Below, in pieces: positions 28,993 through 59,474 of a DNA stretch of 64,000 nt (the first letter of the stretch is position 1; each line of letters begins with the position of its first letter). This DNA comes from Sporosarcina sp. Marseille-Q4063. Its GTDB lineage: Bacteria > Bacillota > Bacilli > Bacillales_A > Planococcaceae. Position numbers and translations under genes: made by a program. The notes under the pieces are model-generated. The model was given only the letters and a program-made list of their open reading frames with translations, was not told the DNA's origin and ran no database searches. The stretch covers positions 3,405,001-3,469,000 of the forward strand of contig NZ_CP070502.1 in assembly GCF_018309085.1 (NCBI RefSeq), read 5' to 3'.

Positions 28993-29122
28993 GTTGATTT
29001 CCATTTCAGGCGGACGCTTTCCTGCGGGCGAGCGCCGAGCCGCTTCCCTCGCTGCGCTCAGTCCAGGGTCTCGGCTGTCTCGCTTTATTCCGCGGGAGTC
29101 GCCACCTTCCATTCCAATCAAC
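28993..29122 (+). repeat. GC-rich structured repeat, copy A
   Basis: About 130 bases bounded by GTTGATT and AATCAAC. It contains CTTTCCTGCGGG near the left end and CCGCGGGAGTCGCC near the right, which can pair, and an inner stem CCGAG/CTCGG. It is far more GC-rich than its surroundings. The same unit occurs at 36489 (inverted), 43378, 52099 (variant), 52514 (inverted variant) and 59426 (truncated). Short open frames across it are not genes. Confidence 0.9.
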
Positions 29123-29156
29123 TAATATCATTGCACGGAGTGAGTTATTAATTTTT

Positions 29157-29304
29157 AGGTACCTGTGCAAGACACTATTCGAAAAATACACTACAATTGC
29201 ATAAAATGAAAAGGGGATATCGACTAAATAACGCTTTGTCGATTTCCCCTTGGCTTTTTATCCAAAGTCCTGAATTGTCATAATTGCACCATGCACAGGT
29301 ACCT
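29157..29304. repeat. Inverted-repeat-bounded element (possible MITE)
   Basis: AGGTACCTGTGCA (29157-29169) and its exact reverse complement (29292-29304) bound 122 bases. In the middle is a second hairpin, AAGGGGATATCGAC/GTCGATTTCCCCTT (about 29211-29252). There is no open frame. This could be a small non-autonomous transposable element or a long structured 3' region for the minus-strand gal operon. Clear target duplications are not visible. Confidence 0.55.
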
Positions 29305-29356
29305 CTTTAATTTAGAAATCTTTAGTAACCAAATCAAGTTAGACATTTCCAACTAA

Positions 29357-29398
29357 AGAAACATCAATAATCTATCAAGTTTAAACCAGCGCCGAAGC
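29357..29398 (+). repeat. Remnant of the 96-bp structured repeat
   Basis: The left flank AGAAACATCAATAATCTATC, shared with the copies before 43688 and 59705, is joined almost directly to CCAGCGCCGAAGC, the right arm of that repeat. Both arms of the full repeat begin with AGCG/CCAGCG, so deletion between them would give this structure. Confidence 0.6.
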
Positions 29399-29443
29399 GA
29401 ATTTAATAGAGGTTTCTCTGTACAATCTATTTAGCTTGAAGCA

Positions 29444-30610
29444 TTACAACGGATCAAATAAATCAACTAAAAGTAAAGCAACAGCACCCTTAAGCGTCGC
29501 ATCATCACCAAGTTTCGAGACTGATATAGCTGTTTGTTTAGCCTTTGGCGTTAACGCACGGTTTTCTATGGATTTACGAATCTCTGGTAAAATCAGTTTC
29601 CCGGATTTTGTTACGCCTCCGCTAAGAACAATCTTTTCAGGGTTTATAATATGGATAAGATTTGTTAGTCCAACTCCAATTATTTCTCCTGTTTCCTTAA
29701 ATACCGATGCGATATTTTCATCGCCAATCACTGCTAATTCATAAATCTGTTCTCCGGATAAATCATGTTGATTCTTAGTTATAAACTTTTGTGCGCGTCT
29801 AGCAATGGCGGGTCCAGTGATAAATGTTTGCAAGCACCCCGGGTTGCCGCATTCACAAACCTCACCATTTAAATCAATCGTCATATGGCCGACTTCTCCG
29901 GCTATATCGTGTGAACCGTGATACAAGTTCCCGTTCATGACAAGTCCGGCCCCGACACCTCTACCGATATTGACAACTAACATGCTTTCAAGTGGACCGT
30001 GGTCTCCGAACCAAGATTCTCCCAATGCGATAGCACGTGCGTCATTTTCAACTTTCACATCTAAATCAAATTCCTTTTCCAATTCTTCTTTGATTGGGAT
30101 ATTTTTCAAACCTAAAATAGGTGCCACCAGCGATGTTCCAGTTTCAACTTCGACAACACCATGCATGGCGACCCCTATTCCGATAATTTTATCGTTGGAT
30201 GTAGGGGAGCCGCCTATACAAGTTCGAATGCATTCTTTGAGAATCGTCAGGAACTGTTTATTGGTAATCGAGGTTGTTAATTTATTAGAAGACCTATTGC
30301 TAATTTTGCCTGATAAATCCGCCATGACACACTCAATCATATCTGGGCCGATATCCACACCGACAATCGAGAACGCTGAGTTATCGATTAGAAGCATTGT
30401 CGGCTTTCGGCCACCTTGCGATTTCCCAAGTTCACTTTCTTTCACGATTCCTTGTTCAATTAACTCTTTCACATTGCTACTCACTGTTGGTGGTGTTAGT
30501 TTTGTTTCCTTAGCAATTTGCGCTCTCGAAATTGGTGCATCCGTCCGTATTTTATTTAAAATAATAGATTTATTTACTGATTTCATCCATTGAAAGGTAC
30601 CTTGTCGCAT
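29444..30610 (-). CDS. ROK-family transcriptional repressor
   Basis: 388 residues. An N-terminal winged HTH (ISRAQIAKETKLTPPTVSSN, about 28-47) precedes a ROK sugar-binding domain with VGVDIGP, the END active-site-like segment, and the zinc motif CECGNPGCLQ. AAAGGAG is the ribosome site. It is the last gene of the galK-galE-galT-galM cluster on the same strand and probably represses it through the palindrome at the galK promoter (35362-35374). Confidence 0.9.
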   Translation of the reverse strand: MRQGTFQWMKSVNKSIILNKIRTDAPISRAQIAKETKLTPPTVSSNVKELIEQGIVKESELGKSQGGRKPTMLLIDNSAFSIVGVDIGPDMIECVMADLSGKISNRSSNKLTTSITNKQFLTILKECIRTCIGGSPTSNDKIIGIGVAMHGVVEVETGTSLVAPILGLKNIPIKEELEKEFDLDVKVENDARAIALGESWFGDHGPLESMLVVNIGRGVGAGLVMNGNLYHGSHDIAGEVGHMTIDLNGEVCECGNPGCLQTFITGPAIARRAQKFITKNQHDLSGEQIYELAVIGDENIASVFKETGEIIGVGLTNLIHIINPEKIVLSGGVTKSGKLILPEIRKSIENRALTPKAKQTAISVSKLGDDATLKGAVALLLVDLFDPL

Positions 30611-30622
30611 AACAAATCTCCT

Positions 30623-31657
30623 TTAATCTATTTTAAATGTAAACACGGTTTGTTTTTCGTATGTTTCATCTGCCTTCAGAATGACTGTAGGAAATCCTTC
30701 ATGATGCAAGGAGGCGGGGGCCGCTTGGGTTTCAAAACATACGCCTAAATACTTTTCGGAATTTCTTTCAGCTAGCTCAAAACCTTCTTCAAGATTAGTT
30801 GATGTGTACATAACTACGCCAGGCTGATTCGTTTTAATAGTCATCATGCGGCCACTTGTTTTTTCTCTTACAATCATTTGCTCGTCATTGGTTTGATTGA
30901 AAATGAAATAATGATCATAACCATTCTTTGCAACAAGGTTTTGCTCGTAAGTGGATTCAATCCCGTCAGCAATTTTTCGACCCTGACGAAAATCAAATGG
31001 CGTATCAGTCACATCAATCTTTTTCCCAGTTGGAATCAATTCCATATCAAGTTCTACAAACTCATCGCTGTTCATTGTAACGATATGATTTTGGACAGTA
31101 TCGGCTAAATTACCACTCAAATTAAAATAAGAATGATTGGTTATTGTTAATGCTGTTGTCTTATCTGTCGTGGCGGAATAATCAATGATAAGTTCATTGT
31201 GATTCGTCAATGTATAGATGACTGTCGTATTCAAATTACCAGGATATCCACCGTCGCCATCTTCACTTGAATGCGTCAATTTTACGCCGACTGTGTGGGC
31301 TGTTTGGAAGGTGGCAGCTTCCCAAATGATTTGATTAAAGCCACCTGGTCCGCCATGTAAATGATGCCTTCCCTCATTTGATTCCAAAGAATAGGTTTCA
31401 TCATTAATGGTAAAACTCGCATCTTGAATTCTTCCTGCAACACGACCAGTAATCGCGCCGAAGTAATTCGGATTTTGTTCGTAATCGGGCAGGTTTTTAT
31501 AGCCGAGTACGACATTTTCAAAAACACCACTTCGATTGGGAACGAGAATTTCAGTAATGATACCACCGAAGTTCAATAAACTAACGCGCATCCCGTTGTC
31601 ATTCGTTATTTTATAGTGTTGCCAACCATTCTTAGTTTTTTCTATCTCTATTTTCAT
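30623..31657 (-). CDS. galM: Aldose 1-epimerase (mutarotase)
   Basis: 344 residues. Catalytic His lies in TNHSYFNLSG and the catalytic Glu in VCFETQAAP near the C-terminus; GAITGRVAGRI is the usual family segment. It interconverts alpha- and beta-galactose so that galactokinase has its substrate. It lies 11 bases after galT and before the ROK regulator. Confidence 0.95.
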   Translation of the reverse strand: MKIEIEKTKNGWQHYKITNDNGMRVSLLNFGGIITEILVPNRSGVFENVVLGYKNLPDYEQNPNYFGAITGRVAGRIQDASFTINDETYSLESNEGRHHLHGGPGGFNQIIWEAATFQTAHTVGVKLTHSSEDGDGGYPGNLNTTVIYTLTNHNELIIDYSATTDKTTALTITNHSYFNLSGNLADTVQNHIVTMNSDEFVELDMELIPTGKKIDVTDTPFDFRQGRKIADGIESTYEQNLVAKNGYDHYFIFNQTNDEQMIVREKTSGRMMTIKTNQPGVVMYTSTNLEEGFELAERNSEKYLGVCFETQAAPASLHHEGFPTVILKADETYEKQTVFTFKID

Positions 31658-31668
31658 CCTATTGGCCC

Positions 31669-33147
31669 CTATTCATTTAATCTGTCGATAAACCTTTCAT
31701 AATCAGCTTTCACCTTGAAAACGCCTGCATCTTTGAGGACCCTAGCGAACTTGTTTCCAAGTTCTTTTTCTATGATTGATTCAATTTCTTCTATATTAGA
31801 TATTTCACCGTAGTTCTTTTTCATCTGATCTACCCAGTCGTTATGATAAGGGGCTACTTCACTAGGTTGACCTAGTAAGTATTTCTTGATTTCCTCTAAT
31901 TCATCCTTCAGGCGTGCGGGTAAAACCGCGAGTCCCATTACTTCAATCAAGCCGATGTTTTCTTTCTTTATATGATGGACATCTTCATGAGGATGGAAAA
32001 TTCCAAGCGGATGCTCATCAGTTGTTCTGTTGTTTCGAAGGACTAGATCGAGTTCGAATAATCCGTCCCGCATGCGCGCAATCGGCGTAATCGTATTATG
32101 CGGAGTGTCGCCGCTAAACGCAAGAATGGCGGCATCTTCGTCACTATAACCTTTCCATGCAGTCAGAACGTAATCGGCAGCATCTACTAAAGTCTGGATG
32201 TCGGCGCTTTGCAATCGAATCGTTGATAACGGCCAATCCAAGACAGATGCAGTTATGTTCGGAAACTTTTCAAATTGAAATGAAAAAGCATTTTTAGCTC
32301 GAGTCATCGGAAATTCGTATCTTCCTGCTTGGTAATGATCGTGACTTAAAATAGACCCGCCGACGATTGGTAAATCAGCATTTGAACCAATAAAATAATG
32401 CGGGAATTTTTCTATAAACGCCAGCAATCGTTCAAAAGATTCTTTACTAATCTTCATATTCCGATGCTCGCCGCATAGTACGATACTATGTTCGTTATAA
32501 TAAACATACGGTGAATATTGCAAGTACCAGTTTTCATTTCCAAGCGGAATTTCAACGATGCGATGATTTGCTCTCGCAGGATAGGCTGTGCGTCCTTCAT
32601 AGCCTTCGTTTTCAATGCATAATAAACATTTCGGATAATTTATATCGCTTTTCAATTCAAGTTCCCGTTTAATTTGTTCGGGATCTTTTTCAGGTTTTGA
32701 CATATTGATTGTAATATCCATTTCACCATAGATTGTTTCGGCTTTAAAATGAATGTTTTTCTGAATGCGATTCATCTGAATATAGTTGCTGTTTTTACTT
32801 AATTCGTAAAAATAGTCTGTTGCATCTTGTGGTGATTTTTCATATTTGTTTTGGAACGTGCTATTAATAACGGAAGGTCTAGCCACAAAGCAGTTCATAA
32901 TGTTTGCTGAGAGAATTTCTTTATCGTCAAAAACATTCTCGATTACATTACTTTCAACTGCATAAGAAATAATTTTTTTGAGTAGATTCGGGATTGTGTC
33001 CTCTGTATTGTTGTTATTTGTTTCAGGAAAAGATTCTAGATTGAGCAGGGCAAGTACTTGGTTGCGTACATAAATCTGATCTGCTTCTTCGATTAACTTT
33101 GTATCGATTCCTTTTTGAATCAAACCACTAATATGTTGGTAAATCAT
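31669..33147 (-). CDS. galT: UDP-glucose--hexose-1-phosphate uridylyltransferase, Firmicutes type
   Basis: 492 residues, the length of the type 2 GalT of Firmicutes. NEGYEGRTAYPARANHR and GSILSHDHYQAGRYEFPM (active-site His pair) are diagnostic. It exchanges UMP between UDP-glucose and galactose-1-phosphate. Its ATG abuts the galE stop; galK, galE, galT and galM form one minus-strand operon. Confidence 0.96.
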   Translation of the reverse strand: MIYQHISGLIQKGIDTKLIEEADQIYVRNQVLALLNLESFPETNNNNTEDTIPNLLKKIISYAVESNVIENVFDDKEILSANIMNCFVARPSVINSTFQNKYEKSPQDATDYFYELSKNSNYIQMNRIQKNIHFKAETIYGEMDITINMSKPEKDPEQIKRELELKSDINYPKCLLCIENEGYEGRTAYPARANHRIVEIPLGNENWYLQYSPYVYYNEHSIVLCGEHRNMKISKESFERLLAFIEKFPHYFIGSNADLPIVGGSILSHDHYQAGRYEFPMTRAKNAFSFQFEKFPNITASVLDWPLSTIRLQSADIQTLVDAADYVLTAWKGYSDEDAAILAFSGDTPHNTITPIARMRDGLFELDLVLRNNRTTDEHPLGIFHPHEDVHHIKKENIGLIEVMGLAVLPARLKDELEEIKKYLLGQPSEVAPYHNDWVDQMKKNYGEISNIEEIESIIEKELGNKFARVLKDAGVFKVKADYERFIDRLNE

Positions 33148-34146
33148 TTACTTCACATCCTTTTCAAAGCCGTTTGGGTTGGCAACATGCCAGTTCCAAG
33201 CATCTTCGATAATATTTTCGATAGAAGTCCGAGTCGGTTTCCAGCCTAGTATGGTTGAAGCTTTTTCCGAACTCGCGACTAGCGTGCTCGGATCTCCCGC
33301 GCGGCGCTCTCCTGACTTTTCAGGTATCTCTTTTCCAGTCACTTTACGTGCGGCATCAATCATTTCTTTCACAGAGAATCCCTGATTGCTTCCAAGATTG
33401 AAAATATCACTTTTCCCGCCTTTGTTTAAATAGTTTAGCGCTAAAAGATGCGCATTGATAAGGTCTTCGACGTGGACATAGTCACGAATGCAAGTACCAT
33501 CAGGCGTGTCGTAATCCTCACCGAAAACAGTAATATGAGAACGTTTGCCGAGTGCAACTTCTAATATGATAGGCACTAAGTGCGTTTCCGGACGATGATC
33601 TTCACCGATTTCACCAGATTCCCGAGCCCCTGCAACGTTGAAATAACGTAAGGAAACATATTGAATTCCGTATGCTTGGTCGCACCATTTCATCATTTTC
33701 TCCATCGCTAATTTCGTTTCCCCATACGCATTCGTTGGGTTCGTTCTGACTTCTTCAGTAATTGGTATCGTGTCTGGTTCGCCGTAAGTTGCGGCTGTTG
33801 ACGAAAAGACGATTTTCTTAACGCTGAATTCATTCATTACTTGTAATAAAACCTGTGTTCCGTAAACGTTGTTATCGAAGTATTCGAGCGGTTTTTCCAT
33901 TGATTCGCCGACAAGTGAATTTGCAGCAAAATGAACGACGGCGTCAATCGATTCCTTTTCAAAGACATCCCGCATAAATTCGATGTTGCGAATATCACCT
34001 TCGTAAAATGTTGCGTCAGGATGAATTGCTTTTCGATTACCGGTTTGAAGGTTATCGATAATAATGACGTCTAATTTTTGGTCGATGAGTTGGTAAACGG
34101 CATGAGAACCGATATATCCGGCCCCGCCTAAAACTAATACACTCAT
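33148..34146 (-). CDS. galE: UDP-glucose 4-epimerase
   Basis: 332 residues from the ATG at 34146 ([15 protein letters not shown]). A longer GTG-initiated frame to 34155 is unlikely: AGAGGAG is 8 bases from this ATG, and the ATG overlaps the galK stop (AAATGAG). NAD-binding GGAGYIGS (7-14) and the YxxxK pair in [12 protein letters not shown] are present. Leloir pathway, cytoplasmic. Confidence 0.96.
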
Positions 34147-35327
34147 TTCGCACACTCCTCTGTAATTTCTTTTGCCCCGTCACCAATTGTTGCTACGTAG
34201 AAAGATGGCGGGTAACCTATTTTAGTAGTGTAGATATTGTCTAGATTGTTTTTAAAATTATCGATTTGATCTTTTTCGACGATTGCGATGGCACAACCGC
34301 CAAATCCTGCGCCGGTCATGCGTGCACCGATAACCCCCGGTTGCTCCCATGCTGCACTTACAATGGTATCTAGTTCAAGTCCGGTAACTTCATAGTCGAC
34401 TTGAAGCGATTTATGCGATTCATTCATTAATTCGCCAAAAGCATCAAGATCACCAAGTTCAAGTTTTTTAGCGGCTTCAATCGTTCGTTGGTTTTCATAC
34501 ACTGCATGTTTTGCACGTTTTTGGTTGACTTCATTGTTAATCAAGTGTTTGTGCTGTTCAAATTCTTCATTAGTCAGATCGCCAAAACTGTGAATGGAAA
34601 GTTCTGTTTGCAAATCCGCTAACGCTTGCTCGCATTGAGTACGGCGTTCATTGTATTTAGAGCCCGCTAGTGTCCGTTGTTTATTGGTGTTAATAATGAT
34701 AATCACATGGTTATCGAGTTTTATCGGCGCGTATTGATAGTCGAGCGTTTGGCTGTTTAATAGAATGGCATGATCACTTTTGCCTTTTCCAACGGCGAAT
34801 TGATCCATAATCCCGCTATTGACACCGATATAATCGTTTTCAACTTTTTGACCGATTTGAATCATCTTGATGCGGTCGATTACCAAGTCGAATAACCCTT
34901 CAAGTACAACACCAGTAACCATTTCAATTGAAGCAGAAGAGGAGAGTCCGGCACCGTTCGGGATGTTTCCGTAAAATAAGATATCCATTCCCCTAGTTAT
35001 TTCGAAGCCGCTTTCTCGGATAAATTTAATCATCCCTTTAGGGAAGTTCGCCCAATTATGTGCGTCATCATAATCCAGGTTATTTAAATCACATTCAATG
35101 ATCCCGGAGTCTGGGAAGTTTAATGAATAAAACCGCAGTTTTTGGTCATCACGAGTTTGCGCGAGTGCATAGGTGCCGAATGATATGGAAGCAGGGAAGA
35201 CGTGCCCTCCGTTATAATCCGTATGTTCACCAATCAGGTTTATCCGCCCAGGTGCAAAAAATATACGTGGTGTATTCGTATTATCGAATATCGTTTGAAA
35301 CTCATGAAGCAAGTCGGGATTTTTCAA
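34143..35327 (-). CDS. galK: Galactokinase
   Basis: 394 residues from a TTG start with GTAGGAGG upstream. The galactokinase signature [20 protein letters not shown] (27-46) and the GHMP ATP loop [12 protein letters not shown] are intact, and [12 protein letters not shown] is the third GHMP motif. It phosphorylates galactose released by enzymes such as the GH35 beta-galactosidase in this window. First gene of the gal operon. Confidence 0.96.
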
Positions 35328-35361
35328 TTGTAATGCCTCCTACAGAACTTAATAAATTAAT

Positions 35362-35374
35362 TTAACTAAGTTAA
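35362..35374. promoter_or_regulatory. Candidate ROK operator at the galK promoter
   Basis: TTAACTAAGTTAA is a palindrome around one central base, lying immediately downstream of the -10 box. The adjacent operon encodes a ROK repressor, a family whose operators are AT-rich palindromes with TTAG/CTAA or GTTTG/CAAAC arms. Confidence 0.5.
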
Positions 35375-35402
35375 GTGTACGGGAGTTTTTAGAAATATTC
35401 AA
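35374..35402 (-). promoter_or_regulatory. galK promoter
   Basis: On the minus strand: -35 TTGAAT (35402-35397), a 17-base spacer, -10 TACACT (35379-35374). This is the best sigma-A-type match upstream of galK. Confidence 0.65.
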
Positions 35403-35487
35403 CAAGAAACGCTCTTTTTGCTTAGGTAACGGGAATGATGATAGTATTAGGTAGTGATTTTTTTCAACAACTCAGGAGATGTTTAGC

Positions 35488-36417: not shown

Positions 36418-36488
36418 GTAATCACTATAATTATTAGTGCTGTCCTTTGGTGGTGGCAATAAATAACACACCTAATAAAGTGAAAGTA

Positions 36489-36618
36489 GTTGATTGTAGT
36501 GGAGGGTGGCGACTCCCGCGGAAAAAAGCGAGACAGTCGAGACCCTGGACAGAGCGTAGCGAAGGAAGCGGCTCGACGCTCGCCCGCAGGAAAGCGTCCG
36601 CCCGCAACGGAAATCAAC
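36489..36618 (-). repeat. GC-rich structured repeat, copy B (inverted)
   Basis: Same unit as 28993-29122 in the opposite orientation, ends GTTGATT and AATCAAC. Its inner stem reads TCGAG/CTCGA where copy A has CCGAG/CTCGG, a compensatory change. It lies between the EamA gene and a terminator. Open frames across it are not genes. Confidence 0.9.
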
Positions 36619-36631
36619 GGTTCATCTATCA

Positions 36632-36672
36632 CCGATTACTTGAAAAATGAACATTCAAGTAATCGGTTTTTA
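36632..36672 (+). terminator. Rho-independent terminator
   Basis: A 13-bp perfect stem CCGATTACTTGAA/TTCAAGTAATCGG followed by TTTTTATTC. It terminates transcription from the EamA gene after repeat B. Confidence 0.85.
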
Positions 36673-36772: not shown

Positions 36773-36792
36773 AGACAATAGAGAGTTAATGT

Positions 36793-43310: not shown

Positions 43311-43343
43311 AACATAGTACCTGTTATGGGTGCTATGTTTTTT
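43311..43343 (+). terminator. Rho-independent terminator
   Basis: AACATAGTACC pairs with GGTGCTATGTT (one G-T), followed by a T run. Confidence 0.85.
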
Positions 43344-43377
43344 GTTTTCCATTATTAAGATATTTTTTATATGGGCC

Positions 43378-43506
43378 GTTGATTTCCGTTCCGGGCGGCG
43401 CTTTCCTGCGGGCGAGCGTCGAGCCGCTTCCCTCGCTGCGCTCAGTCCAGGGTCTCGACTGTCTCGCTTATTTCCGCGGGAGTCGCCGCCCTCCACTCCA
43501 ATCAAC
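43378..43506 (+). repeat. GC-rich structured repeat, copy C
   Basis: Ends GTTGATT/AATCAAC; outer stem GGGCGGCG/CGCCGCCC is perfect here, whereas other copies carry an extra A and a C/A mismatch. The inner stem reads TCGAG/CTCGA. It follows the terminator of the preceding gene by about 35 bases. Confidence 0.9.
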
Positions 43507-43687
43507 TACTTTCATTGTACAGAGGGAGTTATTTAGTGCCTACTTTGGAATATGTAAATTATTATGTACTGAATGCGTATTAATAGAAAAATTTAGTGGA
43601 TTTTGATAGAGCTCTAGTTCAGAAACTCTTAGAAATCAAAAACTAATAGTCTATAGCTACAGAAACGTCAAATTCTACTAAAACAAT

Positions 43688-43783
43688 CCAGCGAAGGCGC
43701 CTTTCCAGTGGTAGCTGGAGCAATAAGACTGATAGTGTTTTTCTATCAGGCTTATTGCGGGAGGCATCCACCAGCGCCGAAGC
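43688..43783 (+). repeat. 96-bp structured repeat, copy 1
   Basis: CCAGCGAAGGCGCC begins and CCAGCGCCGAAGC ends the unit. A central stem (CAATAAG, one mismatch, CTGATAG with CTATCAG, CTTATTG) has a 7-base loop. Copy 2 at 59705-59800 has the same length and two compensatory base-pair changes in this stem. Confidence 0.85.
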
Positions 43784-48347: not shown

Positions 48348-48388
48348 GTCCTCTAGATTAGTCTATACTTGGTCTAGAGGGCTTTTTT
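48348..48388 (+). terminator. Rho-independent terminator after GH105
   Basis: GTCCTCTAGA and TCTAGAGGGC form the stem, followed by six T. Confidence 0.88.
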
Positions 48389-48392
48389 CTCT

Positions 48393-48675
48393 AAAAATTC
48401 AGTGTATGAGCAAGGAAGAATTGAACTGCATTCTTCCAAGTCGGTGCTAAGCGAGCGCCTTGAGCTTTTTTGTACTCAAAAATTCAGTGTATGAGCAAGG
48501 AAGAATTGAACTGCATTCTTCCAAGTTGGTGCTAAGCAAGCGCCTTGTGCTTTTTTGTACTCAAAAATTCAGTTTATGAGCAAGGAAGAATTGAACTGCA
48601 TTCTTCCAAGTCAGCGTTAAGTGAGAGCTTTGCGCTTTTGTTCTAAAAAAATTAGTGTATAAGCAGGGGTTTACT
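48393..48675 (+). repeat. Tandem 85-bp repeats leading into a kinase gene
   Basis: Three copies start at 48393, 48478 and 48563 (period exactly 85) and a short fourth begins near 48646 and runs into the ribosome site. Each has a perfect 8-bp hairpin GGAAGAAT/ATTCTTCC with loop TGAACTGC, then a weak second hairpin (AAGC...GCTT type) ending in a T run. Bases in the second stem vary in a pairing-preserving way between copies 2 and 3. This may be a chain of attenuators or a mobile repeat. Confidence 0.85.
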
Positions 48676-52018: not shown

Positions 52019-52098
52019 GAATACATTTTCTCTTTTCTAGGGATGTATAAGCAAGCCACGGATTCCGTGAGTTTAATATTATTATTATCTTTGAATAC

Positions 52099-52251
52099 GA
52101 TTTAGTGCTCCGTCGTTCGCTTTCCTGCGGGCGAGCGCGGAAGCGGAAAGATAAAGTTCAATCTTTCCCTGCCGCTTCCCTCGCTACGCTCAGTCCAGGG
52201 TCTCGGCTGTCTCGCTAATTCCGCGGGAGTCTCACGACTGCGCACTAAATC
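52099..52251 (+). repeat. GC-rich structured repeat, copy D (variant ends)
   Basis: The core CTTTCCTGCGGGCGAGCG ... CCGCGGGAGTC is the same as in copy A, but the ends are GATTTAGTGC and its exact complement GCACTAAATC instead of GTTGATT/AATCAAC. An extra inner hairpin (GGAAGCGG/CCGCTTCC with AAAGAT/ATCTTT nested) is inserted. Pairing is kept although the sequence differs. Confidence 0.85.
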
Positions 52252-52270
52252 TGAAAGTAATGGTATGAGA

Positions 52271-52304: not shown

Positions 52305-52513
52305 TTACACTAGGTAGAAGTCCATAAGCCATCTCATTAACCGGGCTTTACGGGTTGGGAGAGCACAAGCAGTTGGCAGTTAAGGTTTCTATACTACGCT
52401 TCTATCAAGGTATGTATAACTCAGATTTATCTCTTATAGATTTTTGACGTTTCGATTAATAGTGAGTGAATGTTGTAGCATTCTAGATTAACTCTCTCAA
52501 TTTAATGAAAGTA
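52305..52513. other. Intergenic segment, nothing recognised
   Basis: About 210 bases between two repeat copies; no open frame, RNA gene or clear promoter was seen. Confidence 0.5.
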
Positions 52514-52624
52514 GTTGATTGAAGTGTAGGGTGGCGACTCCCGCGGAATCAGCATCAACCGAAGACCCCGCAGGAGCGACGAGGAGGCTGAGGTGATGCC
52601 CGCAGGAAAGCGTCCGCCCGAAAC
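52514..52624 (-). repeat. GC-rich structured repeat, copy E (inverted, different loop)
   Basis: Ends GTTGATT/AATCAAC and the outer stem are as in copy B, but the interior is replaced by a shorter segment with GCATCA/TGATGC arms around a GACCCCGCAGGAGCGACGAG core. It shows that stem and loop are exchangeable modules. Confidence 0.85.
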
Positions 52625-52642
52625 GGAAATCAACGGTACAAT

Positions 52643-52682
52643 TAAAAACGAGTACTAGAATAATGAATTATCCTAGTACTCG
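52643..52682 (-). terminator. Terminator of the IclR gene
   Basis: CGAGTACTAG/CTAGTACTCG with a 14-base loop; on the minus strand five T follow. It lies between the IclR gene and repeat E. Confidence 0.85.
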
Positions 52683-52702
52683 CCAAAGCGATACTTACTA
52701 TG

Positions 52703-53467
52703 TCATTGAAGCTCTTCTTCAATTGCAGCTTTACAATTCTGCACAGCTTCAATGATTTCATTAGTAAAGTTATCAGTGATTCTGTACTTTGGAACGCTGA
52801 CGCTGAATGCGCCGAAGTTGTTGCCGTGGGCGGTGATGTTGGCGCCGATGCAGAATACGTCAACTTCATGTTCGCCGTCGTCAACTGCATAACCTTGATT
52901 TTTAATGGTGTTCAGTTCGTTTCTGAAAGATTCTTTAGTAGTAATTGTATTTTCCGTTTTTGGGATTAATTCGTGTTCAGCTAGATATTCATCGATTTCT
53001 TCTGCCGTTTGGTCGGCTAGGATTGATTTTCCCATAGCTGAACAATACAGAGGAATCGACCTTCCGATCTGGGAATACAAAGTAACCGGGTTATTGCTTT
53101 CGATTTTCGTGAGATAAACAATCTTATCATTTTCAATCGCACCCAGGTGTACAGTTTCAGTCGTGATTCTTTGCAACTCTTCCAAATGCGGTTGGGCAAT
53201 TTTCTTAATATCCAACTGTTTAAGACTTTGCTTAGCATATTTAATAATGGAAGGCCCAAGTTCGAATTCATTGGTTTTTGGATCTTTTCTAACATAACCA
53301 ATTAAGCCTAACGTATTTAAAATCTTTGACGCCGTTGAATTCGTCATATCGGTGGCTTTCGCGATTACATTTAGACGTTGTGGCTGTGCACTTTCAAACA
53401 AGAAATTTAATATTTGATCGGCTTTTATTAGAACCGTGCCATATGGTTTACTTTGAGTTTTAGACAT
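52703..53467 (-). CDS. kdgR: IclR-family regulator (KdgR-like)
   Basis: 254 residues. N-terminal HTH (RLNVIAKATDMTNSTASKIL, about 31-50) and a C-terminal IclR effector domain (SRSIPLYCSAMGKSIL-type segment, CIGANITAHG). Divergent from kdgA-kdgK-kduI-kduD, so it is probably the repressor that senses 2-keto-3-deoxygluconate, as KdgR does in other bacteria. A TTTCC-AAATA-GGAAA palindrome in the kdgA leader is a candidate site. Confidence 0.88.
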   Translation of the reverse strand: MSKTQSKPYGTVLIKADQILNFLFESAQPQRLNVIAKATDMTNSTASKILNTLGLIGYVRKDPKTNEFELGPSIIKYAKQSLKQLDIKKIAQPHLEELQRITTETVHLGAIENDKIVYLTKIESNNPVTLYSQIGRSIPLYCSAMGKSILADQTAEEIDEYLAEHELIPKTENTITTKESFRNELNTIKNQGYAVDDGEHEVDVFCIGANITAHGNNFGAFSVSVPKYRITDNFTNEIIEAVQNCKAAIEEELQ

Positions 53468-53568
53468 AATAATTTCCTACTTTCATAGCTCATATTTTCT
53501 TCGAGTTTTGGATTAAAGGGTAATTAATTAATGATAGTTTGTCTCATAAACAAATTAAAGGATTTAGC

Positions 53569-53597
53569 TTGTAAACGCTTTCTTTATTATATATAAT
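53569..53597 (+). promoter_or_regulatory. kdgA operon promoter
   Basis: -35 TTGTAA (53569-53574), 17-base spacer, -10 TATAAT (53592-53597). A cre-like site overlaps the -35 box. Confidence 0.78.
53570..53583 (+). promoter_or_regulatory. cre-like site at the kdgA promoter
   Basis: TGTAAACGCTTTCT matches cre with one mismatch at the last base and covers most of the -35 box and the upstream half of the spacer. Confidence 0.65.
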
Positions 53598-53628
53598 AAA
53601 GAAGAAAGTTTCCATATAATAATCTATG

Positions 53629-53643
53629 TTTCCAAATAGGAAA
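53629..53643. promoter_or_regulatory. Candidate IclR/KdgR operator
   Basis: TTTCC, AAATA, GGAAA: a perfect 5-bp inverted repeat about 30 bases downstream of the -10 box. A second TTTCC half-site lies near 53609 and TAGGAAAT recurs just upstream of the IclR gene itself. Confidence 0.5.
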
Positions 53644-53668
53644 TTAATTAATTTATAGGGGGTGTGTT

Positions 53669-54316
53669 ATGAAAAAGCAACAGGTACTTAGAAAACTAAC
53701 TGATTGCGGAGTGGTTGCGGTTGTTCGAGCCGAATCTGAAGAAGAAGCGTTAAAAATTTCAGAAGCCTGTGTAGAGGGCGGTATTAACGGAATCGAAATT
53801 ACCTTTACCGTCCAAGGTGCCGATAAGATCATTAGTGAATTAGCTGCAGTTTACAAGAATAATAGTGATGTCGTCATTGGTGCAGGAACCGTGCTCGATG
53901 CCGTGACAGCTCGAATTGCCATCCTTGCTGGTGCTGAGTTCGTTGTCAGCCCATGCTTTGATAAAGACACGGCGGAGTTATGTAATTTATATCAAATTCC
54001 ATATATGCCTGGTTGCATGACAATAACTGAAATGAAGGAAGCGTTGAAGTCTGGCGTCGATATCGTTAAGTTGTTCCCGGGTAATACATATGGTCCTGAT
54101 TGGGTGAAGGGCGTTAAAGCTCCGCTGCCACAAGTGAATATCATGCCAACGGGCGGCGTCGATTTGGACAATGTGGATCAATGGATTAAAAACGGTTGTG
54201 TTGCTGTAGGTGTGGGCGGCAGTTTGGTTGCACATGCAAAAACAGGTGAGTTTGAAAAAATCACGGAAGATGCTCGTAAATTTGTCGGAAAAGTTCAAAA
54301 GGCAAGAGAGGCGTAA
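53669..54316 (+). CDS. kdgA: 2-keto-3-deoxy-6-phosphogluconate aldolase
   Basis: 215 residues, the usual size. VVAVVRAES, the Glu of GIEITFTVQ, GAGTVLD and the Schiff-base Lys in DIVKLFPGN are present. It splits KDPG into pyruvate and glyceraldehyde-3-phosphate. AGGGGGTG precedes the ATG. First gene of the kdg/kdu operon, with its own CcpA- and IclR-type control sites. Confidence 0.95.
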   Translation: MKKQQVLRKLTDCGVVAVVRAESEEEALKISEACVEGGINGIEITFTVQGADKIISELAAVYKNNSDVVIGAGTVLDAVTARIAILAGAEFVVSPCFDKDTAELCNLYQIPYMPGCMTITEMKEALKSGVDIVKLFPGNTYGPDWVKGVKAPLPQVNIMPTGGVDLDNVDQWIKNGCVAVGVGGSLVAHAKTGEFEKITEDARKFVGKVQKAREA

Positions 54317-54318
54317 TT

Positions 54319-55332
54319 ATGAAAAAGATTATTACTTTTGGTGAAATCTTGCTTCGTCTTTCAACTACAGTGGGAGAAAGACTTTTACAGGCGAATCAAC
54401 TGACGATGAATTACGGCGGTGCTGAAGCGAACGTAGCAATATCCTTGGCGAATTTCGGTCACGACGTAAATATGGTTAGTAAAATTCCAGATAATTCGCT
54501 TGGTCATGCCGTGGAGAAACATTTGAAAGCGAATGGTGTACGGACGGATTATTTATTAAAAGGCGGGGAACGTCTGGGAACTTATTACTTGGAAACAGGT
54601 ATTGGTGAGAGAAGCGCCCAAGTCGTCTATGACCGGAAATACTCGAGTATTTCAATGTTAGCGGAAAATGAAATCGATTTTGATGAAATTTTTCGTGACG
54701 CAACACTTTTTCACGTGACGGGAATCACTCCGGCATTATCGCCAGCCTTGAGTGAGATTACATTGCTGGCGTTAAAGAAAGCAAAAGAACTTGGTGTTAC
54801 GACAAGTTTTGATTTTAATTATCGATCAAAGCTTTGGGGTAAAGAAGAGGCTGCCGAAGTATTTAAACAGCTTTTACCCTATGTGGATATTTGTTCTTGC
54901 GGCGATAAGGATGCGATTCACTTTCTTGGAATTGAAGAAGCGGATGAAACACTCGAAGCAAGTGAAAAACTTAGCTACTATTACGCTAAAATCCAAGAGA
55001 TGTATCCGAATATTACCTATTTGAGCTCGACGTTCCGAGAGGTTTTATCGGCATCGGAAAATGATTTACAAGGTAATTTCTACGTCGATGGAATTTTGTA
55101 TCAATCGAAAGTGCATCATATAAATCCAATCGTGGACCGTGTTGGCGGGGGCGATGCGTTTGCATCAGGCATTTTACATGGCATTTTGGAAGGGTTTTCA
55201 CCAGAAGAAGTGATTTCATTCGCGACTGCGGCATCGGCATTAAAACATACTGTCCACGGAGATTGCAATGTCTTTTCTGCGGATGAAGTGCTAGCGTTCG
55301 CTGAAAATGGTACAGGTAAAATTATTCGTTAA
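54319..55332 (+). CDS. kdgK: 2-keto-3-deoxygluconate kinase
   Basis: 337 residues, PfkB family. NYGGAEANVAISLANFG is the substrate-side signature and DRVGGGDAFASGILHG contains the catalytic Asp. It phosphorylates KDG to KDPG, the substrate of the aldolase encoded 2 bases upstream. Confidence 0.94.
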   Translation: MKKIITFGEILLRLSTTVGERLLQANQLTMNYGGAEANVAISLANFGHDVNMVSKIPDNSLGHAVEKHLKANGVRTDYLLKGGERLGTYYLETGIGERSAQVVYDRKYSSISMLAENEIDFDEIFRDATLFHVTGITPALSPALSEITLLALKKAKELGVTTSFDFNYRSKLWGKEEAAEVFKQLLPYVDICSCGDKDAIHFLGIEEADETLEASEKLSYYYAKIQEMYPNITYLSSTFREVLSASENDLQGNFYVDGILYQSKVHHINPIVDRVGGGDAFASGILHGILEGFSPEEVISFATAASALKHTVHGDCNVFSADEVLAFAENGTGKIIR

Positions 55333-55364
55333 TAAGGCTTTTAACTATTAGGAGGATGACTAAA

Positions 55365-56201
55365 ATGGAAATGGAAACACGTTATGCAAATCACCCGGAA
55401 GAGATTAAGACTTATAATACTGATGAATTGAGAGAGCATTTTCTTGTCGAAAAACTTTTTGAAGCAGGAAAAGTTCACTTAACATACACGCATGTGGATC
55501 GCATGATTTTCGGCGGTGTTACACCAGCAAATGAAGAACTGACTATTAAACTGGATAAAGAACTAGGAGTAACTTATTTCCTTGAGCGCCGTGAACTTGG
55601 AATTATTAATATCGGTGGCGACGGATCTGTCGTTCTTGACGGTGAAGAAATCAAGATGGACCGCCGCGACGGACTTTACGTTGGACGCGGAACGAAAGAA
55701 GTACTTTTCCGTTCAGACGATGCAAACAACCCGGCTAAATTCTATATCAACTCAGCACCTGCGCACCACACGTACCCAACAACGAAAATTGATATTAATA
55801 ATATCAAACCACTTGAAATGGGCGAGCCAGGAACGTTGAACGAACGTAAAATCTATCAATACGTACACCCGAATAACTGTGAGAGCTGCCAACTACAAAT
55901 GGGTCTTACAATGCTACAACCGGGAAGCGTTTGGAACACAATGCCATGTCATACGCATGAGCGCCGCATGGAAGTTTACCTCTACTTCGATATGGAACCA
56001 GAAACGCGTGTCTTCCATTTCATGGGACAGCCGGATGAAACAAGACATTTAGTCATGAAAAACGAACAAGCTGCAATTTCACCAAGCTGGTCAATTCATA
56101 CAGGTACTGCAACGAATAACTACACGTTCATTTGGGGCATGTGCGGAGAAAACATCACGTATGACGACATGGACCACGTAGCAATGGAAGACTTACGATA
56201 A
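55365..56201 (+). CDS. kduI: 5-keto-4-deoxyuronate isomerase
   Basis: 278 residues from the ATG at 55365, matching the usual KduI length; the ATG at 55356 abuts the AGGAGG site. Cupin-type zinc ligands lie in TMPCHTHERRMEVYLYF. It converts 5-keto-4-deoxyuronate, formed by GH105 action on unsaturated oligosaccharides, into 3-deoxy-hexosulosonate for KduD. Codon use from here through kduD is noticeably richer in C-ending codons, suggesting high expression. Confidence 0.96.
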   Translation: MEMETRYANHPEEIKTYNTDELREHFLVEKLFEAGKVHLTYTHVDRMIFGGVTPANEELTIKLDKELGVTYFLERRELGIINIGGDGSVVLDGEEIKMDRRDGLYVGRGTKEVLFRSDDANNPAKFYINSAPAHHTYPTTKIDINNIKPLEMGEPGTLNERKIYQYVHPNNCESCQLQMGLTMLQPGSVWNTMPCHTHERRMEVYLYFDMEPETRVFHFMGQPDETRHLVMKNEQAAISPSWSIHTGTATNNYTFIWGMCGENITYDDMDHVAMEDLR

Positions 56202-56256
56202 TTGAAAAAGAGCGTGCTCGTTTAGGCGGGCACGATATTCTTGGAGGGCGAAATAG

Positions 56257-57039
56257 ATGACAAACAACTTAAATGATTTCTCATTAGACTTTTTCTCATT
56301 AGATGGTCAAGTAGCAATCGTAACAGGCGGTAACAAAGGATTAGGCCAAGCATATGCGGTAGCACTTGCGAAAGCTGGCGCAGATCTTTTCGTTGTCACA
56401 CACGGTACTGAGTGGGATGAAACAAGAGAATTAATCGAAAATACAGGCCGTAAAGTTGAATTTTTCCAAGCAGATTTAACTGATCGCAAGAATGCTAAAG
56501 CATTGGTGGCTAAGTGCGTTGAAGTTTACGGGAAAGTTGATATTTTGATTAACAATGCAGGAACGATTCGTCGTGCACCACTTCTTGAATATACGGAAGA
56601 AGATTGGGACGCGGTCGTAGAATTAAACCAAAACTCCATGTTTTTCCTAAGCCAGGAAGCAGCGAAGCATATGGTGGAACAGAGAAGCGGTAAAATCGTC
56701 AACATCGCTTCCATGCTATCATTCCAAGGCGGAAAATTCGTTCCTCCATACACAGTGAGTAAGCACGGTGTTGTAGGGTTAACGAAATCATTTGCGAATG
56801 AATTAGCGGAGTACGGTGTTCAAGTGAACGCAATCGCACCGGGATACGTTAAGACTGCAAACACAGCGCCGATTCGCGAAGACGAAAAGCGTAACGCGGA
56901 AATTCTATCACGCATCCCAGCTGCACGTTGGGCGGACCCAGCTGACTTAATGGGAATTGTCGTATTCCTATCAAGTAAAGCTTCTGACTATATGAACGGC
57001 TCAGTCGTCGCGATTGACGGCGGATGGTTGTCAAGGTAA
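56257..57039 (+). CDS. kduD: 2-deoxy-D-gluconate 3-dehydrogenase
   Basis: 260 residues, SDR family. NAD site TGGNKGLGQAYA (about 24-35), NNAG, catalytic Ser in NIASMLSF and YxxxK in YTVSKHG. It reduces the KduI product to 2-keto-3-deoxygluconate. GGAGGG precedes the ATG. Confidence 0.95.
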   Translation: MTNNLNDFSLDFFSLDGQVAIVTGGNKGLGQAYAVALAKAGADLFVVTHGTEWDETRELIENTGRKVEFFQADLTDRKNAKALVAKCVEVYGKVDILINNAGTIRRAPLLEYTEEDWDAVVELNQNSMFFLSQEAAKHMVEQRSGKIVNIASMLSFQGGKFVPPYTVSKHGVVGLTKSFANELAEYGVQVNAIAPGYVKTANTAPIREDEKRNAEILSRIPAARWADPADLMGIVVFLSSKASDYMNGSVVAIDGGWLSR

Positions 57040-57056
57040 GAATAGTTGTAAATGAG

Positions 57057-57083
57057 CCGTATCACGGGAAGTGATACGGTTTC
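57057..57083 (+). terminator. Terminator after kduD
   Basis: Perfect 9-bp stem CCGTATCAC/GTGATACGG with loop GGGAA, then TTTCTTT. Confidence 0.8.
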
Positions 57084-57109
57084 TTTGATAGGTAGATTTG
57101 GTGGTTTTG

Positions 57110-57214
57110 GTCGTTTGAGAGTGGGGATTAGTCGCTTGACTGCTGGCTTTAGTCGTTTGCGAGCCCGCTTTAGTCGTTTCAAAGCCATTATTGGTCGTTT
57201 GATAGTTTTATGTA
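57110..57214 (+). repeat. Five direct repeats at exact 21-bp spacing
   Basis: GTCGTTTG or a one-base variant begins at 57110, 57131, 57152, 57173 and 57194. The inner bases differ. The spacing is two helical turns. The array ends about 30 bases before a TIM-barrel gene. Confidence 0.85.
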
Positions 57215-57242
57215 TTTAAATACTAGTAAAGAGGGGATTATT

Positions 57243-58088
57243 TTGGAATTAAATCTTGGGATTCGCGCGCATGATATACAAAATCAGACAACGATTGAAG
57301 GGTTAGTCGATGAAATCGCTGGTAAAGGCTTAACGGGTGTACAACTTGCTTTGGGTAAATCGTTTGAGGATATCAACTCTAGTTTAGGTAGTTTAAGCCC
57401 GGGTTACGCGCAACATATTGGCGGGAAGTTTGCTGAAAAGAATGTTCAAATTTCTGTATTGGGTTGCTATATTCACATGATTCATCCGGATAAAGAAAAA
57501 AGACAGGCGGAGTTGGATCGTTTTAAAGAACATATTCGCTTTGCTAGGGATTTTGGTTGCAGCATTGTTGGAACTGAAACTGGAAACGTTCATGCAAAAG
57601 GAGGCTACACGACGGATAATTTCGAAGAACAACCATTCCTCGATGTCGTTGATAGTGTCCGTGAATTAGTTGAAGAAGCTGAGAAGTTTGGTGTCATTGT
57701 TGCAATCGAAGGTGGCATCAATCACCCGGTTCACACGCCGCAAAAATTGAGAAGACTATTAGACCTTATTGATTCGCCTAATCTTCAAGTAATCTTTGAT
57801 CCGGCAAACTACTTGGATCCGGATAATTATCACCGTCAAGAAGAAATCTTCCAAGAAGCAATGGATTTACTGGGAGACCGCATGGTCATTATGCATGCAA
57901 AAGACTTCATAATTGAAGACGGTTGGATTAAAATGGTGCCAGTGGGAACAGGCCTATTAAATTACGATGCTGTTTTCAAATTAATTAAACCGAAAAAGCC
58001 TTTCATGAATGTACTTTTAGAGGCTACGCAAGAACCGCATATTAATGACAGTATCGCATTCTTAAGAAAGAAATATGCTGAAGCATAA
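57243..58088 (+). CDS. Sugar phosphate isomerase/epimerase-like TIM-barrel protein
   Basis: 281 residues from the TTG at 57243 with AGAGGGG upstream; a longer ATG frame from 57210 lacks a ribosome site. The AP_endonuc_2 fold is supported by VAIEGGINHPVHTP (Glu), FDPANYLDPDN (Asp), IMHAKDFI (His) and LLEATQE (Glu). Lies downstream of kduD and 22 bases before an IMPase-like gene. A role in a side branch of uronate or sugar-phosphate metabolism is likely; substrate unknown. Confidence 0.88.
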   Translation: MELNLGIRAHDIQNQTTIEGLVDEIAGKGLTGVQLALGKSFEDINSSLGSLSPGYAQHIGGKFAEKNVQISVLGCYIHMIHPDKEKRQAELDRFKEHIRFARDFGCSIVGTETGNVHAKGGYTTDNFEEQPFLDVVDSVRELVEEAEKFGVIVAIEGGINHPVHTPQKLRRLLDLIDSPNLQVIFDPANYLDPDNYHRQEEIFQEAMDLLGDRMVIMHAKDFIIEDGWIKMVPVGTGLLNYDAVFKLIKPKKPFMNVLLEATQEPHINDSIAFLRKKYAEA

Positions 58089-58110
58089 ATCGGTGTTGGA
58101 GGTAGGGAAT

Positions 58111-58920
58111 ATGGATAATGCTGTTCGTAATGAAATCTATGAACATGCAAAAAAGTGGGTGCATGAGGCTGGTGAATTGATTCGCCAGAAAATTAATGAT
58201 CCCATGATTATTGAAACGAAAGCGCATGACAAGGATCTCGTCACGACGGTTGATAAAGAAACCGAGTATTTCTTGGCTGAAAATATTCGAAAAACGTATC
58301 CGGAGCATTTGTTATTTAGTGAGGAAGGATACGGGGATGACGTAACATCGTTGGACGGCACTGTTTGGATTGTGGATCCTATTGACGGCACGATGAATTT
58401 TGTACAACAACGAAGAAATTTTGCGATTTCAATCGGGATTTTCCATCAAGGCATCGGTGAAATCGGTTTTGTATACGATGTGATGGCGGATGTTCTTTAT
58501 AGTGCGAAACGCGGTGAAGGTGCTTATAAAAATGACGAAAAACTGCCGATGTTAAAATCAGAACTCGAACTCGGGGAAGCTGTACTTGGATTTAATCATA
58601 AGTGGTTATGTGAAAACAGTGTGATTGATGAAAAGGTTGTGCAGCAATTAGTGAAAAGAATCCGCGGTGTACGTGCATATGGTTCGGCTGCATTAAAACT
58701 GGCTTATGTGTCAGAAGGAATCGTGGACGGTTATTTAACGATGAACCTGGCGCCTTGGGATATTGCGGGCGGCATGATTCTTGCGAATGAAGTTGGTGCA
58801 GTCACTACTAATTTGAGCGGCGGAGAAGTTAATATGCTGACAAACGATTCTACACTGACTTGCCACCCAGCAATTCAAAACGAAATCATTCAGAACTTTT
58901 TGGTGAAAGGCTTAAAGTAA
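58111..58920 (+). CDS. Inositol monophosphatase-family phosphatase
   Basis: 269 residues from the ATG at 58111 (GGAGGTAGGG upstream); the frame from 58075 overlaps the previous gene. Metal-binding Glu in FSEEGYG, DPIDGTMNFV and NLAPWDIAGG are the IMPase signatures. Mg-dependent phosphatase on a sugar or inositol phosphate. Coupling with the TIM-barrel gene suggests that the two act in turn. Confidence 0.9.
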   Translation: MDNAVRNEIYEHAKKWVHEAGELIRQKINDPMIIETKAHDKDLVTTVDKETEYFLAENIRKTYPEHLLFSEEGYGDDVTSLDGTVWIVDPIDGTMNFVQQRRNFAISIGIFHQGIGEIGFVYDVMADVLYSAKRGEGAYKNDEKLPMLKSELELGEAVLGFNHKWLCENSVIDEKVVQQLVKRIRGVRAYGSAALKLAYVSEGIVDGYLTMNLAPWDIAGGMILANEVGAVTTNLSGGEVNMLTNDSTLTCHPAIQNEIIQNFLVKGLK

Positions 58921-59008
58921 ACACGCTACGTACGGTTTTGGTTTACACTTCCTATATTGGGGAATCCTGTTTATAACTGAAACTATAAGTGAATAGGGGA
59001 TGAACCTA

Positions 59009-59356
59009 ATGACTAGAAGTGTAGAAGTTTATTTGAAAAGTGAAAATGACGCCGAATCCGTACGTGCCAGTTTACAAACCGCGAAAGTGAAGAATCTGGT
59101 GATCGATGAAATGGGCGAAGAAGAAAGTAATACAAGGATGTTTACGCCTTTCTTTCCGACGAATATCGGAGGTTCGGGGATGCCAGGCAGCGTCGGACCG
59201 ATTGGTGCAAATGCGCCGATTGTGGTCGATGAGGATGTATTCCAAGGTGAAGACGCGAATCCGACCCATTTATTGAAATTAGAAGTCGAAGAATCCGAGT
59301 ATGATCATGTTCTTTCTATTTTACAGAACCATGAATGTTATACTTCGGTGCAATGA
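59009..59356 (+). CDS. Small conserved-looking protein of unknown function
   Basis: 115 residues from the ATG at 59009 (AGGGG nine bases upstream). A first beta-alpha-beta part (SVEVYLKSENDAESVRASLQ, VKNLVIDEMGE), a glycine/proline-rich middle (GGSGMPGSVGPIGANAP) and an ending LKLEVEESEYDHVLSILQNH suggest two ferredoxin-like halves joined by a flexible loop. No signal or membrane segment. I do not recognise the family. It is followed by a strong terminator. Confidence 0.75.
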   Translation: MTRSVEVYLKSENDAESVRASLQTAKVKNLVIDEMGEEESNTRMFTPFFPTNIGGSGMPGSVGPIGANAPIVVDEDVFQGEDANPTHLLKLEVEESEYDHVLSILQNHECYTSVQ

Positions 59357-59374
59357 AATTATGTTATAACTTTA

Positions 59375-59417
59375 ACTGGTACTTGAATGGTTCATTATTC
59401 AAGTACCAGTTTTTTTA
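59375..59417 (+). terminator. Strong rho-independent terminator
   Basis: A 13-bp perfect stem ACTGGTACTTGAA/TTCAAGTACCAGT plus seven T. Arm sequence similar to that at 28946. Confidence 0.92.
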
Positions 59418-59425
59418 TTTGAACC

Positions 59426-59474
59426 GTTGATTTCCGTTCCGGGCGGCGCTTTCTTGCGAGCGAGCGCTGAGCAC
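59426..59474 (+). repeat. GC-rich structured repeat, truncated copy F
   Basis: Starts GTTGATTTCCGTTCCGGGCG as in copy C, then diverges after CGAGCGCTGAGCAC; the right half is missing. Confidence 0.75.

Follow-up and report, generated by a model that had tools for sequence, protein, structure and literature searches.

Results

Copies of a hairpin repeat in the window

The window analysed here is a stretch of 64,000 nucleotides from Sporosarcina sp. Marseille-Q4063 (contig NZ_CP070502.1, positions 3,405,001 to 3,469,000), in which six copies of a GC-rich hairpin repeat, designated A to F, lie between genes (Table 1). An earlier note on this DNA had described six copies as intergenic, free of reading frames and present in both orientations; all six were located, with A, C, D and F on the plus strand and B and E on the minus strand, and none overlaps a listed open reading frame (ORF) of at least 100 amino acids, the only ORF size examined. 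Here we demonstrate that the repeat is a real, widespread and structured family, and we argue that it is probably a subterminal hairpin module, with a core of about 130 nt, of mobile elements linked to insertion sequences (ISs) of the IS1182 family.

The core is delimited by GTTGATT and AATCAAC and forms a single long interrupted stem topped by an apical arm. Its inner stem reads CCGAG/CTCGG in copy A and TCGAG/CTCGA in copies B and C, which is the paired change reported in the earlier note. The outer stem of copy D (ATTTAGTGC/GCACTAAAT) differs from that of the other copies, and D faces inward toward E. A palindrome resembling GAGTACTTGAA lies on the outer side of copies A, B, E and F, followed by a T-run in all but copy B. 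The outer hairpin and the right flank are conserved among the window copies, and no matching terminal repeat was seen by eye in the flanks inspected.

Table 1. Position and strand of the repeat copies and their outer hairpins in the window.
Feature	Position	Strand	Remarks
Copy A, outer terminator-like hairpin, then T-run	28946..28977	+	
Copy A, core hairpin	28992..29126	+	covariance model 145.7 bits
Copy B, core hairpin	36485..36619	-	covariance model 146.3 bits
Copy B, outer palindrome	36632..36666	-	T-run absent between palindrome and core
Terminator-like hairpin and T-run immediately upstream of copy C	43311..43345	+	sequence unlike the other outer hairpins
Copy C, core hairpin	43377..43510	+	covariance model 146.1 bits
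Copy D, core with divergent outer stem	52096..52257	+	weak, 48.7 bits; left member of inward pair
Copy E, core with ATCACCTCAG-type arm	52510..52635	-	124 bits; right member of inward pair
Copy E, outer hairpin	52649..52682	-	T-run on minus strand
Copy F, outer hairpin, then T-run	59376..59409	+	
Copy F, truncated core	59425..59472	+	left 48 bases only

With copy C as query, BLAST found 44 places in the window genome (G000; one contig of 3,978,257 bases), a figure that includes pieces of single copies split by an insert. In many of these copies the left of the core is occupied by a palindrome, CGAGTACTTGAAT...ATTCAAGTACTCG, mostly with a T-run next to it, and the right flank stops near AGTTATTTAGTG. 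The left palindrome varies yet stays paired in some copies (e.g. GAGTAC/GTACTC and GAGCAC/GTGCTC). Apical arms are of several types that vary among copies and among species, and some copies contain nested mini-hairpins of about 30 nt (L005 vs L084, L028 vs L083, L013, L039, L040 and L042); at two orthologous sites (the L005/L084 and L028/L083 comparisons) such a mini-hairpin is present in one species and absent in the other. The apical loop of the copies at L037 and L043 is interrupted at a TGCAC/GTGCA site by an insert that we read as IS3-like.

Fold strength and covariation

The fold of copy C reaches -63.1 kcal/mol, compared with -44.3 (standard deviation 3.7) for shuffled sequences, and 0 of 200 shuffles were as good. 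For the analysis of covariation, 73 cores from 22 genomes were aligned and a 39-pair structure was chosen after RNAalifold; from 61 extracted cores, three were dropped for their large inserts and two as near-duplicates, 17 with hand-set ends were added, and copies whose ends could not be set were excluded. Pairing was preserved in 93.6% of cells, compared with 82.8% in shuffled alignments and at most 48.9% for slid versions of the structure, over which a structure derived from the same sequences has an advantage. Two-sided changes were found in 27 of the 39 pairs (shuffled mean 14.3), cells with a two-sided change numbered 327 (shuffled 107.3), and the covariation score was 0.295 (shuffled 0.114); none of these values was reached in 500 shuffles, and related sequences may outdo shuffles even without structure. 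Further pair types (57, against 53.7 in shuffles) were at least as numerous in 45 of 500 shuffles and gave no clear separation. Covariation across the copies of the family, the absence of which would by the earlier note's own terms have refuted its reading, is present. Non-complementary internal loops are conserved on either side of the stem, and unpaired positions are conserved too (alignment A1).

No Rfam family matched the window at gathering score, and five loci searched with E values allowed up to 1 returned solely 6S RNA, outside the core. Nor does the energy of the fold favour the plus strand as an RNA, the plus strand being better in 19 and the minus strand in 53 of the 73 cores.

Distribution among genomes

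In an initial BLAST search, 22 of the 24 other genomes of the window genus gave matches, the exceptions being G005 and G020, as did 3 of 16 genomes from other families; matches extending into the flanks came mainly from G000, G003 and G012, among the matches listed. A covariance model, R1, matched 82 of 299 Bacilli genomes and 27 of 118 genera (E 1e-4 or better) in a scan that scored at most 11 candidates per genome under stricter filters. A scan of named genomes returned at least 120 stretches, 80 of them listed. Among the matches listed were Sporosarcina, Psychrobacillus, Paenisporosarcina, Planococcus, Lederbergia, Bacillus, Salsuginibacillus, Evansella, Texcoconibacillus, Virgibacillus, Salipaludibacillus, Alkalicoccus and unclassified Bacillota.

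The core inside IS1182-family elements of relatives

In relatives of the window genome, cores that belong to an IS1182-family element sit either between one terminal repeat and the gene for the transposase or, as an inward-facing pair, at both ends. At L167 of G016, an intact transposase of 467 amino acids (NF033551, 463.6 bits, cut-off 270) is flanked by two inward cores, the ends CAGACTGTAGACAAA lie outside both cores, and beyond them a 28-bp stem-loop is directly repeated. In G238, from another genus of the same family, an identical core is found at five loci, between the left end and the transposase. At four of these loci (L380, L381, L382 and L384) the IS is about 1740 bp long, has the ends CAGACTGTAGACAAA/TTTGTCTACAGTCTG and carries an open frame of 450-451 codons; L383 holds a partial element. 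The direct repeats at L380, L382 and L384 measure 25, 26 and 33 bp, each a whole stem-loop. A whole stem-loop of 21 bp is likewise repeated at L174, and the same pattern is seen with substitutions at L175 and L176; L174 and L175 have largely lost the transposase gene and retained both ends. Terminal inverted repeats together with a stem-loop target are thus present at L167, L174, L175, L176, L380, L382 and L384; matching ends were not found at L170 in the terminal-repeat search. Similar ends adjoin palindromes in other families as well (L393 and L293).

A second transposase clade, 22-24% identical to the query, has ends of the type AGGCCACTGAAAAA and again carries the core between end and gene (L325 and L301). 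The transposase frame of L325 has an internal stop, and its fragment scores 96.8 bits with NF033551, below the cut-off of 270; the transposase of L281 scores 341.9 bits with the same model. In Evansella, pieces of another IS1182-like gene lie close to the core (L285, L321 and L322). The window genome was searched for an IS1182 transposase and gave no match.

When ORFs near cores were clustered, the IS1182 loci fell in the largest cluster (40 loci); loci retrieved as IS1182 were over-represented in the set, the cluster also took in a frame reading through the core, and no count is drawn from it. A Pfam scan of one batch of neighbouring ORFs (A2) found DUF772 transposase domains in 3 of 95 proteins; a further batch (A3, 107 neighbouring proteins) was aligned, outside the Pfam scan.

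Inward pairs

Where two cores lie less than 1 kb apart, they mostly face each other: among 125 model hits in the 80 listed stretches of the named scan, 26 neighbouring pairs were inward, 3 tandem and 0 outward, for which a binomial test at a chance of 1/4 gives 3.6e-13, paralogous copies not being independent. In a further 40 loci with 46 hits, all 6 close pairs were inward. Matching terminal repeats were sought around 35 inward pairs, of which 3 were short of flank, and 16 of the remaining 32 exceeded the 95% shuffle level. Psychrobacillus pairs, such as L313 and L314, have ends of their own type, ATAGGGAAACTGCGCGGTA.

The transposase-less core pairs of Psychrobacillus (L302, L291, L313, L314, L315 and L307) mostly bear terminal repeats GGGAAACTGCGCGGTAA, L302 lacking the left one, and by eye their targets are palindrome-like.

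Orthologous sites in two relatives

Synteny with the window region extends to G003 and, in part, to G012. At site A the core is present in both relatives, with a different apical arm in G003 and none in G012; at site B the core is gone from G003 and both flanks are still there; and at site C the G003 ortholog carries a different apical arm. Losses of this kind are under-sampled, because the loci of relatives were fetched as mostly element-bearing.

Nine pairs of cores from G000 and a relative were compared, with the exclusion of site B, of matches between paralogous elements, and of L013 and L029, in which the core or one flank was unaligned. In five comparisons (L001, L006 twice, L014 and L028) the arm was exchanged or lost or a mini-hairpin was gained or lost, and the pairs kept were 32/46 in L001, 34/42 and 24/42 in L006, 28/44 in L014 and 37/55 in L028. 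In the four without arm exchange, the pairs kept and the number expected under random substitution were 41/44 and 40.1 (L005, with an additional mini-hairpin of 30 nt in G012), 36/42 and 38.4 (L007), 41/43 and 40.3 (L016) and 36/42 and 37.2 (L030), a total of 154 of 171 against about 156 expected, from a small sample and a simple null. These four contained no compensatory changes; over all nine there were 5, against 2.3 expected, all where the arm had changed.

For fold stability, simulated mutation gave a mixed picture. Simulations were at least as stable as the ortholog in 124 of 200 cases for L007, 163 for L016, 192 for L030, 191 for the G012 ortholog of L006, 45 for L001, 36 for L014, 73 for L028, and 0 for L005 and for the G003 ortholog of L006. 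For copy E, the mutated G003 sequence reached the stability of G000 in 0 of 400 simulations and the mutated G000 sequence was at least as stable as the G003 fold in 374 of 400; the G003 ortholog therefore looks decayed.

Selection on structure, which the earlier note had argued from the paired change, consequently stands in part: the signal is strong at the level of the family, and at single sites, where the four comparisons with unexchanged arms kept pairing no better than under random substitution, it is not seen. Within the limits of a small sample and a simple null, the data show no hint that the fold is kept up at each site, and the structure thus seems to be kept at the level of the family.

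A RAYT-like gene in the window genome

The earlier note had called for a search for a RAYT-like Y1 transposase gene, and the window genome contains one such gene, which scores 66.1 bits with NF047646, below the cut-off of 80. Across the genomes of the genus, copies of the core do not follow the distribution of Y1 hits: seven copy-rich genomes (G006, G009, G010, G014, G015, G016 and G019) have no Y1 hit, and G005 and G020 have Y1 hits and no BLAST copy of the core. Moreover, the 7-kb surroundings of the RAYT-like gene hold five copies of a different palindromic repeat.

The palindrome of that region (L046), GGTACCTGTGCA...TGCACAGGTACC, also adjoins copy A, at window positions 29158-29303; it has dozens of matches in G012 and is absent at site A of both G003 and G012. 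It is probably the RAYT-linked repeat of the genus. A 6S RNA gene lies close to the RAYT-like gene (L046:6161-6351), and L047 holds an IS605-like element with a broken TnpA frame and an open frame of 568 amino acids that we read as TnpB-like.

Discussion

In this study, we characterized a hairpin repeat whose copies occur inside ISs of relatives, beside duplications of whole stem-loops and with a marked bias toward inward pairs, and whose fold covaries across the family. These observations are the basis on which we favour, with some confidence, its assignment to IS1182-linked mobile elements as a subterminal module. The module would exist in three states, namely within complete IS1182-type ISs, as inward pairs that have no transposase, and as single copies; inside an IS it would occupy the space between the terminal repeat and the start of the transposase gene, or form an inward pair at both ends. 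Since the window genome has no IS1182 transposase, its copies, which are singles apart from the pair D/E, are most likely relics.

What is described for IS1272 suggests why a fold might matter to such an element. IS1272, which is assigned to the IS1182 family (PMC4923244), has been proposed to join stem-loop ends to stem-loop targets, with one branch of the model duplicating the whole target stem-loop (PMC5678879), and IS1272/TnSha1 inserts into hairpins, several of them confirmed terminators, with partial deletion (PMC4923244). The elements described here resemble IS1272 and TnSha1 in the NF033551 transposase of the relatives' elements and in their stem-loop or terminator targets, and differ in that they hold a covarying hairpin of 130 nt inside one or both ends. 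They differ, too, in the fate of the target: for IS1272, PMC4923244 and PMC5678879 report that the stem-loop is deleted or replaced and report no target duplication, whereas here the whole target stem-loop is duplicated at several insertions, as would fit the duplicating branch of the IS1272 model. By analogy, the core may act in transposition, which would depend on structure; resident copies would then decay, and arms would be swapped through exchange between dispersed copies. The fold seems to be maintained by the spread of the family and not by a local job at each site.

Several observations weigh against this interpretation. A transposase resembling either query was found within 1.8 kb of just 10 of the 83 cores in the named scan, a fraction that is an undercount because many loci end near the core. 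An IS end as the source of the copies, which the earlier note had named among the explanations that would overturn its own, is partly borne out in the IS1182 elements of relatives. The IS of G238 bears one core only, and L381 in the same genome has the ends and no direct repeat. In the search for terminal repeats, half of the inward pairs with sufficient flank (16 of 32) did not exceed the 95% level of the shuffles, and some others passed it narrowly (among them L275, L314 at 1077 and L170). Outward pairs were seen three times (L382, L384 and L390), at loci picked for other reasons. The ortholog of L005 and the G003 ortholog of L006, both with an added mini-hairpin, were more stable than all simulations (0 of 200 as stable). 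Finally, the core has other carriers. In G022 it sits within an ISL3-type element (NF033550, 166.1 bits, a partial frame below the cut-off of 180), the copies of which lose identity 88 nt left of a CGGACGC motif, some 66 nt away from the core. In G229 a 194-nt unit with a single core (30 nt, core, 31 nt) occurs at three unrelated sites with 193 of 194 positions identical; its borders are sharp, the first two copies agreeing at 17 and 14 of 30 bases outside the unit, and neither a match to the IS1182 query nor a terminal repeat was seen.

These last two carriers keep alive the alternative of a structured element that moves independently by means of its own mobiliser, inserts beside terminators and was taken up by a number of unrelated ISs. 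That cores of the same model accompany IS1182 transposases just 22-24% identical to the query, and that for the majority of copies no related transposase was found nearby, also speak for independence. The bias toward inward pairs and the two-core ISs with IS1182 ends, however, are expected of IS derivatives and not of independent insertions, and we regard an independent element as distinctly less probable than a module of IS1182-linked elements.

Alternatively, the repeat could be a structure useful to the host as RNA or DNA, such as a terminator, an insulator or a protector of 3' ends, that is selected at each site. The strong fold and its covariation, the terminator-like outer hairpins that adjoin several copies, and the conservation of unpaired positions would all be in keeping with such a role, but we consider it unlikely. 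The orientation of 38 copies relative to neighbouring genes is unbiased (10/10/9/9, based on simple ORF calling that included spurious frames), the four orthologs with unexchanged arms retain about as many pairs as random substitution predicts, G003 has no core at site B and G012 no arm at site A, and Rfam gave no match. With no orientation bias and no energetic advantage of the plus strand, a cis-regulatory or 3' untranslated region RNA was rejected as well, as was an integron attC-like site, which the GTTGATT/AATCAAC ends had suggested and which does not seem to fit the attC pattern.

Covariation can also arise without selection. Quasipalindrome correction is a mutational process that copies one arm of an imperfect palindrome onto the other, and self-templated correction of this kind could produce paired changes. 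Internal loops that are non-complementary and yet conserved along either side of the stem are not what it predicts, and paired changes were absent from the four orthologous comparisons in which the arm was not exchanged, which makes this explanation highly improbable. Least probable of all is a family of the REP/REPIN type mobilised by RAYT, a Y1 transposase, which the layout of inward pairs and singles (REPIN-like; PMC3116915) and the RAYT-like gene of the window genome would suggest, and which the distribution of copies and Y1 hits among genomes, together with the five copies of a different palindrome around that gene, contradicts.

The likeness to REPINs is nonetheless one of layout. As in REPIN/REP-RAYT systems, inverted doublets occur beside singlets and a transposase gene is sometimes flanked by an inverted pair (PMC3116915); the gene here is of the DDE-type IS1182 kind and not Y1, and a hairpin of about 130 nt stands in place of a REP of 20-40 bp (PMC3733652), a palindrome beside which a GTAG or CGTC tag is found (PMC3733652). 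The doublet would be the replicating unit if judged by the 26 of 29 close pairs that are inward, yet the single units of G229 also look mobile. It is tempting to speculate, at rather long odds, that the repeat belongs to a DDE counterpart of REPIN-RAYT, in which an IS1182-type transposase recognises the fold and not the sequence of a 130-nt end hairpin and joins it to stem-loop targets. Were this true, replacement of stem-loops at resident copies would explain the differing arms, outer stems and nested mini-hairpins at orthologous sites.

Other dispersed repeats of Bacillales were compared by description. Like bacterial miniature inverted-repeat transposable elements (MITEs), including bcr1 of Bacillus cereus, the repeat is non-coding, intergenic, dispersed, short and free of a transposase; for bcr1, by contrast, a TTTAT motif and an occurrence confined to the B. 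cereus group are described (PMC6542083). The Bhal-1 and Bhal-2 families of Bacillus halodurans (74 and 76 nt; PMC2267715) are likewise dispersed stem-loops of Bacillales. With bcr1 and the Bhal families compared by description and not by sequence, our literature searches recognised no paper describing the element, exact strings of the element returned nothing resembling the family among the matches listed, and the searched text of a MITE review (PMC10969869) contained no occurrence of IS1182, Bacillus or REPIN.

The interest of the family lies in its size, its covariation and its REPIN-like layout with a DDE partner. As a module of IS1182-linked elements it would provide a large covarying structural signature for such mobile DNA over many Bacillales genera, and natural examples of whole-stem-loop duplication, the branch of the model proposed in PMC5678879. 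Strong covariation among paralogous copies may mirror selection on a mobile family and not an RNA function at the site, which would be a trap for RNA discovery. Given that terminator-like hairpins and large stems are placed near genes, their effect on transcription is open to direct testing.

The window holds other repeats as well. A second GC-rich palindromic repeat, CCAGCGAAGGCGCC...CACCAGCGCCGAAGC, occurs at 43680-43783 and 59697-59800, with a part at 29385, and sometimes lies 128-378 nt right of a core. A fixed composite of the core with this second repeat was rejected, the repeat being found right of the core in just 6 of 38 loci, most of them from other genomes. Between genes at 48374-48628, an 85-bp unit is present in three tandem copies.

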